From the NCBI GenBank assembly GCA_020345785.1, contig CP070771.1, forward strand, positions 6,616,137 to 6,624,249: DNA of 8,113 nucleotides, given 5' to 3'. The number at the start of each line of letters is the position of its first letter. Within the stretch, counting starts at the first letter, position 1. Below, piece by piece: positions 1,585-6,679 of the stretch. The stretch comes from Desulfobacterales bacterium (GTDB taxonomy: Bacteria > Desulfobacterota > Desulfobacteria > Desulfobacterales > JAFDCJ01). The notes under the pieces were generated by a model that worked only from the letters and a program-made list of their open reading frames with translations, was not told the DNA's origin and made no database searches. A program made the position numbers and the translations under genes.

Positions 1585-2136
1585 TTAATCTTTTTGTGCG
1601 ATAAAAGATTTTAACATATCGCTTTGCAGCACACTGATATTTTCAAATTTTACACCAAAACCTTTGGTACTGCTCCAGGCAATTTTTCCGCTAAACGTGA
1701 ACGGCTGTGGATGGTTGAGCAAGGAGAATTTTAGCAGCACATCCTTACCGACGGGAAATTTGGCGTTGGATTCGATGAAGACCCCGCCGATACTAACATC
1801 CAATATATAGCTTTTGTATGTGCGATCTTGAATTCGATAATTGGCGTTTATCAGGCATGGTTTGCGCTGATGCTCCCGCATTGAGGCATTGGATTCCTCG
1901 ATACTCACTGTTTTGACAGGTAATTCAATCTGCGGTGATTGACCCATTTGCTCCAAGAGGATTATCTGCTGTTCTTCGGTCATATCAACAATCAGCTTGT
2001 ATAAATGAGAGCTGACCTTATTGCCCACCAATTGTTTTAATAGAATCAACTGCTGGTCTTTGGGCATTTCGCTTACCAGTTGAAACAAACGTGCCGTGAT
2101 GCCGAATTTACCCAGCGTCGGGTCCGAAGCTATCAT
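1585..2136 (-). CDS. PilZ-domain protein, likely c-di-GMP effector, with N-terminal helical repeats
   Basis: A 183-residue cytoplasmic protein. The C-terminal PilZ domain (about residues 87-180) carries both c-di-GMP-binding motifs: RxxxR as REHQR (R87, R91), and D/NxSxxG as DVSIGG (D113, S115, G118). It should therefore bind cyclic di-GMP and relay it to an unknown partner. The N-terminal part contains two similar helices: LFQLVSEMPKDQQLILLKQL (17-36) and LYKLIVDMTEEQQIILLEQM (45-64), 9 of 20 identical with a 28-residue period, probably a docking or dimerisation module. Start choice: the ATG at 2136 has AGGAG seven bases upstream. A longer in-frame TTG at 2163 would add nine residues but has no ribosome site. 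First gene of the PilZ-DUF4124-DUF2914 group, which hints that the exported proteins are part of a c-di-GMP-linked surface process; that link is inference. Confidence 0.88.
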   Translation of the reverse strand: MIASDPTLGKFGITARLFQLVSEMPKDQQLILLKQLVGNKVSSHLYKLIVDMTEEQQIILLEQMGQSPQIELPVKTVSIEESNASMREHQRKPCLINANYRIQDRTYKSYILDVSIGGVFIESNAKFPVGKDVLLKFSLLNHPQPFTFSGKIAWSSTKGFGVKFENISVLQSDMLKSFIAQKD

Positions 2137-2517
2137 GCCCGGGCTCCTATTATGTGAGTGCAATTTGAGAACTGAAGAATTCTTATGTTTATGATATATT
2201 AAAAGCCTGTATTCCTTTTAATTTATTAGCAATATGCGAAAAGCGCGAAAGCCGATGTATTGGGGATATTGCGCCATTGCCGGCTAAAATGATTAGTTTT
2301 TAAATAAATTCTAATGGTTTACCGTTAAGGTGTCAATTAAATTTTTTTATTCATTATTCAGCAAAGCAAATCGCTTCTATCAAATCAGGTGCAGGTGACT
2401 CAAATCACACGCTTCATCGCCGGTTATTTGTTTGACACCGCGGCGGCTTTTATCTATTATTCCACTTCTCCAATTCATTTCACTCGCCAGAATTTCTGCA
2501 TAGAAGGGATTTTAAAA
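2137..2517. other. Intergenic region between divergent genes
   Basis: 381 bases between the PilZ gene (minus) and the gcvT-SHMT gene (plus). The left part, especially 2160-2230 and 2285-2360, is AT-rich and must hold the minus-strand promoter of the PilZ group, but no hexamer pair stands out there. The right end holds the plus-strand promoter at 2432-2460. I looked for a glycine riboswitch, which often precedes gcv genes, and see no convincing match. No tRNA or other RNA gene is visible. Confidence 0.6.
2432..2460 (+). promoter_or_regulatory. Sigma-70 promoter of the gcvT-SHMT fusion gene
   Basis: A perfect -35 TTGACA (2432-2437), a 17-base spacer and a -10 TATTAT (2455-2460, five of six consensus bases) predict a transcript starting near 2467. 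That gives a leader of about 50 bases before the ATG at 2518. Because the promoter lies downstream of the in-frame GTG at 2389, it also argues that translation begins at 2518. Confidence 0.8.
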
Positions 2518-5169
2518 ATGGAACAGCTGCTCAAAACCGTATTTTACGAAAAGCATATCGGCTTGGGTGCCCAAATGGTGGAATTCGGCGGTTGGGATAT
2601 GCCGGTGCAATATGAAACGGGCATCGTCCAGGAGCACCTTAACACCCGTAAGCAGGCCGGTCTTTTTGATGTATCCCACATGGGTCGGTTCGTTATTTCC
2701 GGCCGGGATGCAAGGGATTTTCTCCAGCACGTGCTGACCAACAATGCAGCCGCCATCGAAGTCGAAGAAGGCCAGTACACTATGATTCCGGATGATAACG
2801 GCGGGGCGGTTGATGATGCCTATCTGTACCGCTTTGTGGAGGATGAATACCTGCTGGTGGTCAACGCTGCCAACCGTGAAAAAGATTGGAGTCACCTGCT
2901 GGCATTCAAAAAGGATTTCGGCCAGGTGGACATCGCCGACCGTACCCTGGACATCGCCATGCTGAGTCTGCAGGGGCCGCTGACAAAAGAAATTATGACC
3001 GCCATCATAGACGCTGGACGCCTGCCGGAGCCGCTCAGAAACACTCTGAGCACCGTGGTGATAAACGGCAGTCGGGTTCTGGTCGCCCGTACAGGGTACA
3101 CCGGCGAGCCGATTTGCTTTGAACTTTTTGTCGAGCGCCGGGATGCGTTGATGGTCTGGGATATGCTCTTGCAAAAAGGTGCTTGGCCGGTGGGCCTGGG
3201 CGCACGCGATACCCTGCGATTGGAGGCCGGTTTGCCGCTCTACGGCCACGAACTGGGTCTTGATCCGGAGGGGAAGCCCATCCCGATTTTTGCGTGCAAT
3301 CTGGCAGGTTTTGCCGTCAGCTTTTCACCGCTTAAGGGAGAATTTGTCGGCAAGCAGCCTTTAGCCCGGCAATTTGAGGCCTTTAAGAAAATTGTCGACC
3401 GCGATTACTCCCTCATTGAAAGGCTGCCTCGAATGATTCAGCCTATCGAACTGCTGGACAAAGGTGTCGCCCGGGCCGGTGCCGCCGTATATCGCGGTCC
3501 CGAGCCGGTGGGATATGTGACCAGCGGCACCATGGTTCCTTACTGGCAGAGCGAGGGGGTGGGGCTTTCAACCGTCCAGAGCAAAGACAAGAAAATGCGG
3601 GCTATCGGACTGGCGCTGGTAGACAGCCGGCTGGTGGAAGGCGATGAAATCGAAATTGAAATCAGGGCGAAAAAACTCAAGGCGGTTATCGTCCCATATC
3701 TCCTGAGAAACGAAGCGCCGCCTTATAGCTGGTCGATTCGATACGAAGAACTGCGCCGGGATAAAAAAACCATGCAGACGGACGATCAGACAGCCGATAA
3801 TGTCCGGGCCCTGATTGAAAAGGCGGCGGCCAATACCATCTGGCGCCAAAAAGAATGCGTCAATTTGATTCCCTCCGAGCAATCCTATTCAGCCATGACC
3901 CGCCTGCTTTCCATCATGGACCCGGTCGGAAGATATGCCGAACACAAACCGGTCAAGGCGTTTAAAGAAGCGGATATCTTCTATTATCAGGGCACGGATT
4001 TCATTTCGGAAGTCGAATACCTGCTCCAATCAGAACTGAAGAAATATCTGGACTGCACGGAAGTAGAGACACGGGTGATTTCCGGCCAGATGGCCAATGT
4101 CGCCGTGTTCAGTGCCCTGGTGGATTATTTAAACCGGGCCGATCGGAAAAGCGAGCAGCGCCGAATTCGCAAGATAATGAACAATCACATCATCAAGGGC
4201 GGCCATCTAAGCGCTCAGCCCATGGGAGCGTTACGGGATTTTGTGATGCGCGACCCTGAATGGGAAAAACCGGCGGTCATCAACTTCCCGGTATTAGATG
4301 AAAATCCATATAAAATCGATACGGCAGCCTGCCGCGAGTTGATCGCACGGCATCGACCCGAATTGATTATTCTGGGCAAGAGCATGATTATTCAGCGTGA
4401 ACCGGTGGCCGAAATTCGCAGCATCATTGATGAACTCGAGTTGGACTGCATTCTGATGTACGACATGGCCCACGTGCTGGGGTTGATCGGGCCCTATTTT
4501 CAGCAACCTTTTAAAGAAGGTGCGGACATCGTAACCGGTTCGACCCACAAGACGTTTTTCGGGACCCAACGCGGTATTGTTGCAGCCAATTATACCGAAG
4601 AGGATCTGCTCTATGATTTCTGGGAAGCCATTCAACGCCGGACCTTTCCGGGCAGCCTGAGCAATCATCATCTGGGAACCCTGCTGGGCCTTCTTCTGGC
4701 CGCTTACGAGATGAATTATTTTAAAGACGACTACCAGAAGGCGGTGCTGAACAATGCCAAAGCGTTTGCCGCGGCTCTGAAGGATTGCGGATTGGATGTT
4801 GCCGGTGATCCCGCCATTTCTTATACGGAGACCCATCAGGTCATCGTGAATGTGGGCTATGCAAAAGGGCCGGAAATTGCCCGGCGCCTGGAAGACAACA
4901 ATATCATACTCAACTATCAGGCTGCGCCGGATGAAGAAGGGTTTACCGCGTCCGGCTCCCTGCGGACCGGTGTGCAGGAGATGACCCGCTTTGGAATGAC
5001 GGAAAAGGATTTTGGCGAACTGGCCCGGCTGATGGCCGATGTCATTCTCAATCAAAAAGACGTCAAGGACGAAGTGCGTGCTTTTCGTCGGCGCTTTCTG
5101 GACATGCAATACTGTTTTTCCGGCAAGGAGTTCGAGGAGCACATTGAGAAATTGCACCGGTTGGTCTAA
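2518..5169 (+). CDS. Fused glycine-cleavage T-protein (GcvT) / archaeal-type serine hydroxymethyltransferase
   Basis: An 883-residue protein with two complete-looking enzymes. Residues 1 to about 400 are a GcvT aminomethyltransferase: DVSHM (51-55), GQYT (85-88), the DD pair that includes the catalytic Asp (99-100), VNAANREKD (115-123), RTGYTGE (191-197), GLGARDTLRLEAGLP (226-240) and TSGT (335-338). After a linker of about 20 residues, 419-883 are a PLP-dependent SHMT: NLIPSE (449-454), YAE (473-475), YY (489-490), GGHL (561-564), D649 and H652 (YDMAH), Schiff-base Lys678 in GSTHKTFFG, SNHHL (715-719) and substrate-carboxylate Arg816. The DxxH spacing and the His-to-Lys spacing of 26 equal those of E. 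coli SHMT. The SHMT half resembles archaeal SHMTs. Together the halves could pass methylene-tetrahydrofolate and glycine into serine. Start: ATG 2518 with AAGGGA eight bases upstream and a promoter at 2432-2460; the GTG at 2389 is rejected. No gcvH or gcvP lies nearby. The junction lies on an A7 run, so two separate genes remain possible. Confidence 0.85.
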   Translation: MEQLLKTVFYEKHIGLGAQMVEFGGWDMPVQYETGIVQEHLNTRKQAGLFDVSHMGRFVISGRDARDFLQHVLTNNAAAIEVEEGQYTMIPDDNGGAVDDAYLYRFVEDEYLLVVNAANREKDWSHLLAFKKDFGQVDIADRTLDIAMLSLQGPLTKEIMTAIIDAGRLPEPLRNTLSTVVINGSRVLVARTGYTGEPICFELFVERRDALMVWDMLLQKGAWPVGLGARDTLRLEAGLPLYGHELGLDPEGKPIPIFACNLAGFAVSFSPLKGEFVGKQPLARQFEAFKKIVDRDYSLIERLPRMIQPIELLDKGVARAGAAVYRGPEPVGYVTSGTMVPYWQSEGVGLSTVQSKDKKMRAIGLALVDSRLVEGDEIEIEIRAKKLKAVIVPYLLRNEAPPYSWSIRYEELRRDKKTMQTDDQTADNVRALIEKAAANTIWRQKECVNLIPSEQSYSAMTRLLSIMDPVGRYAEHKPVKAFKEADIFYYQGTDFISEVEYLLQSELKKYLDCTEVETRVISGQMANVAVFSALVDYLNRADRKSEQRRIRKIMNNHIIKGGHLSAQPMGALRDFVMRDPEWEKPAVINFPVLDENPYKIDTAACRELIARHRPELIILGKSMIIQREPVAEIRSIIDELELDCILMYDMAHVLGLIGPYFQQPFKEGADIVTGSTHKTFFGTQRGIVAANYTEEDLLYDFWEAIQRRTFPGSLSNHHLGTLLGLLLAAYEMNYFKDDYQKAVLNNAKAFAAALKDCGLDVAGDPAISYTETHQVIVNVGYAKGPEIARRLEDNNIILNYQAAPDEEGFTASGSLRTGVQEMTRFGMTEKDFGELARLMADVILNQKDVKDEVRAFRRRFLDMQYCFSGKEFEEHIEKLHRLV
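3763..3769 (+). other. A7 homopolymer at the GcvT/SHMT junction
   Basis: Seven consecutive A lie directly before ACC ATG, at codons 416-418. With six A, the GcvT frame would stop at TGA 3812-3814 (431 residues). With eight A, it would stop at TAA 3798-3800 (427 residues). In both cases the SHMT half could start at ATG 3772 (465 residues), overlapping gcvT by 29-43 bases. The ribosome site for that ATG is weak (GGGA at 3758-3761, ten bases away). Confidence 0.7.
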
Positions 5170-5256
5170 GGAATCAGCGACCGGAGGCAGGGTATGGTCC
5201 CATAAACGCTAAGTTGCTTTTAGGTAGGGGAATCGGGGAACGTTTACTGAAAATAA

Positions 5257-5298
5257 TTGAACATCGAACATCGAACGTCCAACGTCGAACATCGAATG
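5257..5298 (+). repeat. Heptamer array, copy 1 (six units, TCGAACR-like)
   Basis: Six consecutive 7-base units: TTGAACA, TCGAACA, TCGAACG, TCCAACG, TCGAACA, TCGAATG. The consensus is TCGAACA or TCGAACG. Its inverted partner lies at 5494-5535. Confidence 0.85.
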
Positions 5299-5401
5299 AG
5301 AATAAAGATGAACAAGCCGGTGTATTAATTTGAAGAAAGGCAACCTAAGAACCTTAATGGTTTCATCATTTAACTACTTCATTTTTCTCCGCCTCCGGCG
5401 G

Positions 5402-5412
5402 GGGGATATGCG
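5402..5412 (+). repeat. GGGGATATGCG, inverted partner at 5634-5644
   Basis: The exact 11-mer recurs as its reverse complement at 5634-5644. The pair crosses the heptamer-array pair (one arm inside the array loop, one outside), so both pairings could not form simply at the same time. Confidence 0.5.
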
Positions 5413-5493
5413 AACCAACCCGATATCTACAACGCGTATCAATTCTGTGGATCAGGAAAGCACTTAGCAATTCAAAATTCGATATAGGTTTAT

Positions 5494-5535
5494 CATTCGA
5501 TGTTGGACGTTCGGCGTTAGATGTTGGACGTTCAT
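5494..5535 (-). repeat. Heptamer array, copy 2 (inverted, six units)
   Basis: Read on the minus strand: ATGAACG, TCCAACA, TCTAACG, CCGAACG, TCCAACA, TCGAATG. It aligns unit for unit with the array at 5257-5298 (35 of 42 bases identical, last unit identical), separated by 195 bp. Confidence 0.85.
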
Positions 5536-5674
5536 TTCTAAATCAACCGCTTTAGGGAACGATTACAACTTGTGAATGTTTACAGCACGACTCAGAGCTA
5601 TGGGTCTGGTCCCCACCCATTCCAGGCACCTTGCGCATATCCCCAACTCTGCTGGTGGTCGCTGATTGAATATT

Positions 5675-6352
5675 CTACAACTCACACTCCACCAGGCAGC
5701 CCATCGCTGCGGCGATCACGTCGACGGCATTGGCGATACTCAACGTTTCCGTGTTGATGACCAGATCATAGTTGGTGGGATCAGCAATATCAGCATTAAA
5801 ATATTTGCGGATAAAAGCCCGGCGATTCGATTCCGTTTTAATCACGCGACGCTTGGCGTCTTCTTCAGACAGGCCAAAGTCCTGGGCAACATTCTGGATT
5901 CTTACCCTGCGGGATGCGGTAATTCGAACCCGAAACCGTTGTTCCGGCGGCAGGATAAAATTTGCGCCGCGGCCCACGACAACCGCTCGACCGAGTTTGC
6001 CGATCGTGCCGATAACATGCATGAGGTGCTGCAGGTATTCGTCCGGCCATAAATGCCGGCTTTGGACTATCGATGATATCCAGTCCTCCAGAATGGACAG
6101 CCCCCTTTCATCCAGGGTAGCAAGCATTTGTTCGCTGATGTCAGCCCGTTTCGCCATTTCGTGCAGGACTTCCTGATGAAACACTTCAAATCCCAACCTC
6201 TCGGCGAGTTTCTGGGCCACAATGCGTCCCCCGCTGCCGGGTTCGCGGGAGATTGTGACGACGGGAAGACTTATTTTTTCTTCAGGTATTCGCTTGTTCA
6301 GAATTTGCCAGCGGTGGATCTGTTCTTCGGCAATTTGAAGTATCGATTTCAT
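5675..6352 (-). CDS. Cytidylate-kinase-like protein
   Basis: A 225-residue cytoplasmic protein of the cytidylate-kinase-like family. After an N-terminal helical extension (about residues 1-28) comes a P-loop in VVTISREPGSGG (31-42), in which the GxGG core binds nucleotide phosphates. Further family features are GRGAN (127-131), an arginine-rich lid region (R143, R148, R149, R151, R168, R169) and DPTNYDLVINT (191-201). This family is distinct from the housekeeping Cmk, and its true substrate is generally unknown, so CMP phosphorylation should not be assumed. Start: ATG 6352 with a near-perfect AAGGAGG four bases upstream. An in-frame TTG at 6439 would add 29 residues but lacks a ribosome site and conserved sequence. 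It converges on the gcvT-SHMT gene across a repeat-rich gap and appears to be a single-gene unit. Confidence 0.85.
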   Translation of the reverse strand: MKSILQIAEEQIHRWQILNKRIPEEKISLPVVTISREPGSGGRIVAQKLAERLGFEVFHQEVLHEMAKRADISEQMLATLDERGLSILEDWISSIVQSRHLWPDEYLQHLMHVIGTIGKLGRAVVVGRGANFILPPEQRFRVRITASRRVRIQNVAQDFGLSEEDAKRRVIKTESNRRAFIRKYFNADIADPTNYDLVINTETLSIANAVDVIAAAMGCLVECEL

Positions 6353-6679
6353 AGGCCCTCCTTTAGGTTTGCACTGAGGGGTTAAAACGTCCGCAAAACC
6401 GCCGCAGGAATTTTCGAGGATCAACTCATGGTTTGACAATTTTTCTCAGCCGATCAGGTATCCTTTTCAATCGGCGGCCGCAGCTTCAGCCGAATAAAAA
6501 AATGAAGGGTATGGGGGAGGCAGCCTAACGGTGGTGAACCACTGCGGTTGAGGTCCTTAAATGCGTTCGCCAGAGATCAGGGGCAGGTGCGATTTTAAAT
6601 GTCAGCGTTAGGATCTGACAGGTGTCATGTTCGTCGGGTTGACTTTGACGTAAGGTTCATACCCATGGAAATAATATAG
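6353..6679. other. Non-coding stretch upstream of the kinase-like gene
   Basis: 327 bases with no convincing gene. It holds the ribosome site (6357-6363) of the kinase-like gene, a probable terminator of the hydrolase gene (6593-6620), and a 6-bp hairpin with a 15-base loop (GCCGAT 6449-6454 with ATCGGC 6470-6475) of unknown meaning. No good promoter hexamer pair for the kinase-like gene was found on the minus strand. Confidence 0.5.
6593..6620 (-). terminator. Weak intrinsic terminator after the SGNH hydrolase gene
   Basis: On the minus strand TGTCAG and CTGACA form a perfect 6-bp stem (6615-6620 with 6600-6605) around a 9-base loop, followed by TTTAAAAT. It lies about 60 bases after the stop codon at 6680-6682. 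The stem is short and the T-run is broken, so efficiency is uncertain. Confidence 0.4.

Follow-up and report, generated by a model that had tools for sequence, protein, structure and literature searches.

A widespread GcvT-serine hydroxymethyltransferase fusion predicted to couple glycine cleavage to serine formation

A stretch of 8,113 nucleotides from a Desulfobacterales bacterium (contig CP070771.1 of assembly GCA_020345785.1, positions 6,616,137 to 6,624,249; hereafter the window) carries a single gene in which the glycine cleavage T-protein GcvT is joined to serine hydroxymethyltransferase (SHMT). The chain is a real, conserved fusion which is widely distributed in mostly anaerobic bacteria. 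It is very probably a bifunctional enzyme, predicted from its sequence to couple glycine cleavage to serine formation, and both halves are probably catalytically active. T-protein acts on lipoylated H-protein, whose aminomethyl group it transfers to tetrahydrofolate (THF), giving methylene-THF and ammonia, and SHMT, an enzyme dependent on pyridoxal phosphate (PLP), converts methylene-THF and glycine to serine, or the reverse. In research on photorespiration and on carbon fixation by the reductive glycine route, it has long been asked whether SHMT receives methylene-THF directly from the glycine cleavage system. No description or characterisation of a GcvT-SHMT fusion was found in the literature searched, which left subscription journals mostly outside its coverage, and the available portions of PMC12674515 and PMC7547702 do not describe one.

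A single chain containing two enzymes

The features of the fusion gene are:
2518..5169, + strand: fusion gene, GcvT (T-protein) plus SHMT; ATG at 2518, stop at 5167-5169, 883 amino acids
2545..3258, + strand: GcvT folate-binding domain, residues 10-247 (PF01571, 248 bits)
2812..2817, + strand: Asp99-Asp100 of GcvT, Asp100 aligned to Thermotoga maritima Asp96
3451..3696, + strand: GcvT C-terminal barrel, residues 312-393 (PF08669, 38 bits, cut-off 25.9)
3727..3789, + strand: junction of the halves, approximately residues 404-424, with lower model confidence
3826..5031, + strand: SHMT domain, residues 437-838 (Pfam SHMT, PF00464, 129 bits, above the gathering score)
4549..4551, + strand: Lys678, the PLP lysine, aligned to Escherichia coli K229 and lysine in 79/79 fusions

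As the first-pass annotation of this DNA had read it, one uninterrupted frame encodes GcvT followed by SHMT, and all three Pfam domains of the 883-residue chain (GCV_T, GCV_T_C and SHMT) score above cut-off. The mechanical open reading frame (ORF) starts upstream, at a GTG at 2389 (926 amino acids); the start at 2518 is preferred because M1 is invariant among 26 aligned relatives. Both the GcvT and the SHMT fold are predicted in an AlphaFold2 model. The junction was placed from the length of stand-alone T proteins (411-413 amino acids) and from a dip in the predicted local distance difference test score, which averages 63 over residues 411-420.

The N-terminal half passes the curated gcvT equivalog TIGR00528 of NCBIfam (257 bits, cut-off 235.85) and the PRK00389 cut-off (318 against 300). 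Aspartate occupies both positions 99 and 100 in 79/79 aligned fusions, and Asp96 of T. maritima is presumably the catalytic aspartate of T-protein. Among the residues that we take to form the catalytic and folate sites of GcvT, D99, D100, N116, Y194, E202 and R230 are kept in all 79 fusions and W26, Y104 and E197 in 78. Compared with GcvT of the glycine cleavage system (TIGR00528; PDB 1woo, 1yx2, 3a8i), the fusion adds a second complete enzyme at the C-terminus.

In the C-terminal half, the residues named as catalytic by the first-pass annotation (Lys678, Asp649/His652 and Arg816) were borne out by alignment to E. coli GlyA, where they correspond to K229, D200, H203 and R363, whose catalytic roles we assume. 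The equivalents of E. coli Tyr55, Glu57, Tyr64, Tyr65, His126, Asp200, His203, Lys229 and Arg363 are present in 79/79 fusions. No half with lost catalytic residues was seen among these 79 aligned fusions, nor were two separate adjacent genes found among the relatives, of which one locus of 76 has an in-frame stop; either would have spoken against the earlier reading.

Distribution and reality of the fusion

A protein search, in which 7997 candidates were scored, returned 6037 proteins at E <= 1e-3. The best 120 of these were examined, and all of them, the window's own included, have the same three-domain fusion, with lengths of 847-895 amino acids. A chance origin is excluded by the recurrence of the same two-enzyme chain, at this length, in each of these best 120 matches. 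The architecture is already present in sequence databases, where it is often named GcvT or aminomethyltransferase. A database search for such single chains, with their taxonomy, had been suggested earlier, and its outcome is that the best matches are fusions throughout, with 80 loci spread over several phyla.

These 80 loci were kept from a scan of genome contigs, with both patterns taken from the T half, which found at least 584 relatives. Analysis covered 76 of them, four (L006, L046, L054 and L061) being cut by contig ends. The frame is uninterrupted across the matched span at 75 of the 76; the remaining one, L028 from a Spirochaetales metagenome-assembled genome (MAG), has one in-frame stop and was excluded from alignments and trees. 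It is this stop that could favour an artefact, either misassembly or an overlooked stop between two neighbouring genes, but the probability of such an explanation is negligible. Against it stand the 75 uninterrupted loci, the consistent chain length of the best 120 matches and the occurrence of the same architecture in long records (NZ_AP023416.1 of Vescimonas fastidiosa and the 5.3-Mb CP070694.1, locus L038), and the homologues rule it out.

By NCBI lineage, the 80 loci belong to Thermodesulfobacteriota (30), Bacillota (22), Myxococcota (9), Pseudomonadota (6), Spirochaetota (3), Actinomycetota (3), Planctomycetota (2), Auribacterota (1) and Bacteroidota (1), with none given for 3. Most are from MAGs and such labels can mislead; the Myxococcota-lineage loci that were inspected are Deltaproteobacteria by record title. 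Named isolates with the fusion include Sporomusa ovata, Clostridium thailandense, Oscillibacter valericigenes and Desulforhopalus singaporensis. Four gammaproteobacterial MAGs have two flanking gene families in common, which argues against contamination there. Among the complete matches fetched, L002 (from genome G030, 80% identical) is, with L006, most like the window. A plasmid search gave 201 records, one (V. fastidiosa) at 60-80% identity and 200 below 60%. In 198 Spirochaetota genomes (E <= 1e-60) the fusion type was found solely in G021, the genome at the centre of that draw and picked for having it; a stand-alone methanogen-type SHMT is present in 12 of the 198, G021 included. The best 120 of 4473 proteins matching the SHMT half are apparently fragments of this fusion, many of them from short contigs, and stand-alone SHMT relatives were obtained from whole-genome searches instead.

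Origin of the two halves

By sequence, the SHMT half resembles methanogen-type SHMT more closely than it does bacterial GlyA. It is 34% identical to the SHMT of Methanocaldococcus jannaschii, 39-41% to eight stand-alone proteins and 22-27% to eight GlyA. In a 94-sequence tree made by a quick method, with 76 of 77 fusion halves (a short one was dropped by the length filter), the 76 fusion domains form one group with a Shimodaira-Hasegawa-like approximate likelihood ratio test support of 100, and the fusions, the stand-alones of about 430 amino acids and one methanogen SHMT lie apart from the eight GlyA. The M. jannaschii enzyme (4bhd, 4uqv) and these stand-alones are the nearest SHMT lineage among those compared. 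They have an SNHH stretch and the fold in common with the fusion but are unfused, whereas the fusion has extra loops and a glutamine replacing a folate-contact asparagine. Bacterial GlyA (PRK00011) has the catalytic residues and fold in common with the SHMT half, yet falls in a different tree group and has a subfamily cut-off which that half does not reach. The M. jannaschii enzyme uses tetrahydromethanopterin.

Stand-alone methanogen-type SHMTs of about 430 amino acids were seen in Desulfobacterota and Spirochaetota (L081-L083, L130-L133 and L135). Another, at L146 (6170-7411, - strand), has a neighbour which by eye resembles a thymidylate-synthase-type protein. A further PF00464 protein, L134 (G145:C100:67356-68492), has alanine at the Tyr55 position and glycine at the His228 position, and may possibly have another PLP activity.

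A single clade (100/100), separate from 14 canonical GcvT, holds the T halves and three stand-alone T proteins. The careful tree behind this result used 31 of 77 fusions and was made without the eight divergent GcvT-like proteins; a quick GcvT tree places these outside the fusion clade. As both quick trees have long branches, and the SHMT one a single methanogen sequence, results on splits are carried by the reduced careful trees; the careful SHMT tree contains 31 fusions and leaves out GlyA and the long-branched stand-alones L133 and L134. The simplest history suggested by these trees would be a single fusion of GcvT with a methanogen-type SHMT, followed by spread.

Natural splits occur in both directions. 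In three gut-type Clostridia (L101-L103) from the family of G018, described below, a fusion-type T protein of 411-413 amino acids stands alone beside gcv or lipoate genes; GlyA is present and no fusion-type SHMT was found there. In the tree these T proteins branch from within the fusions, and a topology that sets the fusions apart as their own clade is rejected by the approximately unbiased (AU) test (p 0.0012), which indicates that the SHMT half has probably been lost from a fusion. In G310 a fusion-type SHMT half of 466 amino acids occurs unfused, with a start of its own, and is the only SHMT of the genome, in which GcvT and P-protein gave no match; its sister in the tree is the corresponding half of L065 (100/99). 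The splits fit what is expected of two working enzymes, as the SHMT half may stay when glycine cleavage goes, and may go where GlyA exists. Three other suspected splits were rejected, L104 and L105 being contig ends and L106 a gap of N.

Other GcvT and SHMT genes in fusion genomes

A separate GcvT above cut-off is absent from 25 of 30 fusion genomes, the five exceptions being S. ovata, C. thailandense and three gammaproteobacterial MAGs. In 118 genomes from the order of G006 (Desulfobacterales by title), 47 have GcvT above cut-off, with 48 matches. Of these, 46 lie in frames of 877-1013 amino acids, all with fusion-type SHMT, and two (711 and 591 amino acids) are cut at contig ends, with the SHMT present as pieces. 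No separate GcvT above cut-off was seen in this draw.

The fusion is the only SHMT-family match above cut-off in 6 of the 30 genomes; G017, with one further weak 32-bit SHMT match, would make seven, and G021 has a stand-alone methanogen-type SHMT as well. In 101 genomes of the family of G018 (L066, a Clostridiales MAG; the family is probably Oscillospirales), fusion-type SHMT is found in 13 of the 22 that lack GlyA-class SHMT and in 9 of the 79 that have one, an association with a Fisher p of 1.2e-5 (3.2e-5 without G018) uncorrected for kinship. The fusion-type identity was confirmed in all 22 bearers, although it is in pieces in G315, G316, G338 and G342 and unfused in G310. No SHMT at all was found in 8 of the 22 genomes without GlyA, so assembly gaps or true loss are also at work.

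These data bear on whether the C-terminal half is SHMT at all. Some other PLP enzyme related to SHMT, for example an L-threonine transaldolase or a different beta-hydroxy-amino-acid aldolase, might instead have been fused to GcvT to make a different product. We consider this improbable given the nine E. coli SHMT residue equivalents kept in every aligned fusion and the genomes, including G310, in which the fusion-type domain is the sole SHMT above cut-off. Methanogen SHMT is also a closer sequence match (173 bits) than the transaldolase (119 bits), and the fluorothreonine transaldolase model TIGR04506 is missed by far (129 against 650).

Association with the glycine cleavage system

At 33 of the 76 loci at least one of gcvH, gcvPA and gcvPB lies within 10 kb of the fusion (Bacillota 17/23, Desulfobacterota-type 12/38, others 4/15). 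These counts, made by Blast with the gcvH, gcvPA and gcvPB of L042, whose identities were checked, are a lower bound because of short contigs and a simple ORF caller; groups were assigned from record titles, and the Bacillota group includes Sporomusa (Negativicutes). In Vescimonas fastidiosa, a gut isolate whose record gives a human source, the order is fusion-gcvH-gcvPA-gcvPB-lpdA-5-formyl-THF cyclo-ligase, and the fusion (L141, 6717-9362) is annotated merely as 'glycine cleavage system aminomethyltransferase GcvT', a name that conceals the SHMT domain. P-protein is present in 29/30 fusion genomes and in 46 of the 47 Desulfobacterales genomes with GcvT above cut-off. The first-pass annotation had described the gene as standing without gcvH or gcvP nearby, which is true of the seven ORFs scanned in the window, though many relatives do have such neighbours. 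The suggestion in that annotation that the chain couples glycine cleavage to serine formation remains the natural reading, strengthened by these neighbours.

Divergent GcvT-like genes of about 420-450 amino acids were also observed in Desulfobacterales, at L100 (5598-6860, - strand), L112 (6728-7993, - strand), L114 (6525-7877, + strand), L115 (6013-7326, + strand) and L116 (5961-7229, - strand). They adjoin gcvH/gcvPA, fall below the gcvT equivalog cut-off and are approximately 30-37% identical to the window's T half over part or full length. Of the two P-protein genes of G061 (C527, C951), one lies close to the fusion and the other close to a divergent GcvT-like gene; this genome possibly has two glycine cleavage systems side by side.

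Predicted function and alternatives

In the predicted mechanism, the N-terminal half would act as the glycine-cleavage T-protein, producing methylene-THF and ammonia, and the C-terminal half as a methanogen-type SHMT turning methylene-THF and glycine to serine, or backwards. With the P-, H- and L-proteins, the sum would be 2 glycine <-> serine + CO2 + NH3, catalytic in THF, which would shuttle between the two halves of the chain. The SHMT half would be expected to bring about dimerisation, a raised local folate concentration is also expected, and the fusion itself suggests local sharing of folate between the two sites. Sulfate reducers may run the reaction towards glycine synthesis, and gut Clostridia may run it either way. 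The use in a reductive glycine route that the first-pass annotation proposed is one possibility.

Several observations weigh against this prediction. GlyA is also present in 22 of the 30 fusion genomes. The SHMT half misses the NCBIfam GlyA subfamily cut-off (PRK00011, 247 against 335), and at the position of E. coli Asn347, presumably a folate contact, it has Gln801 in 79/79 fusions, a conservative change. The active-site loop 470-490 is modelled by AlphaFold2 with low confidence. P-protein was not found in G030, the source of L002, or in G090. A position of the G310 SHMT outside the fusions is compatible with the AU test (p 0.24). The genomes are mostly MAGs or drafts, with completeness values not given, which makes absences weak. 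Finally, a divergent GcvT-like gene lies in the gcv operon of several Desulfobacterales, of which some (L100, L114-L116) have the fusion as well, and there the fusion could be a paralogue with a function of its own.

Taken further, this last point would mean that the T half in Desulfobacterales is not the glycine-cleavage T-protein and serves another methylene donor. The divergent proteins beside gcvH/gcvPA at L100, L112 and L114-L116 favour this, as do G084, G137, G003, G007 and G011, which have a divergent gene beside gcvP/gcvH plus the fusion. We nevertheless regard it as unlikely. Eleven of the 47 fusion-bearing Desulfobacterales genomes have a P-protein gene on the same contig as the fusion and no more than about 10 kb away from it (for G109, from the SHMT piece of the fusion). 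In G006, a single 5.3-Mb contig, the gcv operon has no T-like gene in the 19 kb inspected (L097) and the fusion is the only GcvT above cut-off, while in G061 each GcvT type has a P-protein near it.

If the fusion does link glycine cleavage to serine formation, it could do so merely by equalising the amounts of the two enzymes, with a free folate pool and co-expression as the only coupling. The existence of each half on its own, and a short junction modelled with low confidence, speak for this explanation, to which we give somewhat less than an even chance. On the other side, each tree places its fusion halves in a single group, and their retention in several phyla, even beside GlyA, points to some benefit; as counter-evidence this is weak, since co-expression is itself a benefit. 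More tentatively still, and with some doubt, we propose that methylene-THF passes from the T site to the SHMT site within the same dimer, unmixed with the cell folate pool, so that the fusion would be a dedicated glycine-serine converter with a single origin and later transfer among phyla of mainly anaerobic bacteria.

Surroundings of the gene in the window

The other features of the window are:
1585-2163, opposite strand to the fusion: flanking PilZ gene
2432-2460, + strand: promoter-like site TTGACA-17-TATTAT, scoring 11/12, not significant as a scan result
5675-6439, opposite strand to the fusion: flanking cytidylate-kinase-like gene

The gene had been described as alone on its strand with its own promoter. 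The flanking genes are indeed on the other strand and the promoter-like match exists, but the number of such sites in region 2100-5700 (5) is within that of shuffles (3.7 +/- 2.5). Rfam (at the gathering threshold) and tRNA searches gave no match in the window. Degenerate 7-base repeats (GAACATC-like) were detected by Tandem Repeats Finder in the intergenic DNA 3' of the fusion gene, at 5259-5296; a second array in inverted orientation, at about 5496-5532, was seen by eye only, the program listing the first array alone.

Relation to known systems and significance

Fusion of a GcvT-like folate domain to a partner enzyme is found in dimethylglycine oxidase/dehydrogenase and sarcosine oxidase (1pj5, 4pab, 2gag), which also match in fold. 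In these systems a one-carbon unit is handed to THF within one protein, and the partner, a flavin oxidase, comes before the folate step. In the GcvT-SHMT fusion, by contrast, the partner is a PLP enzyme that comes after it.

An annotation that names GcvT alone can cause the SHMT to be missed, most seriously in genomes where no other SHMT was found. The fusion is also a ready-made part for formate- or CO2-assimilating pathways. A natural fusion, alongside relatives having one half alone, makes direct handover testable. If handover within the dimer is true, the glycine cleavage complex and SHMT would together work as a single machine closed with respect to folate, a bacterial counterpart of the pair that glycine decarboxylase and SHMT form in mitochondria.
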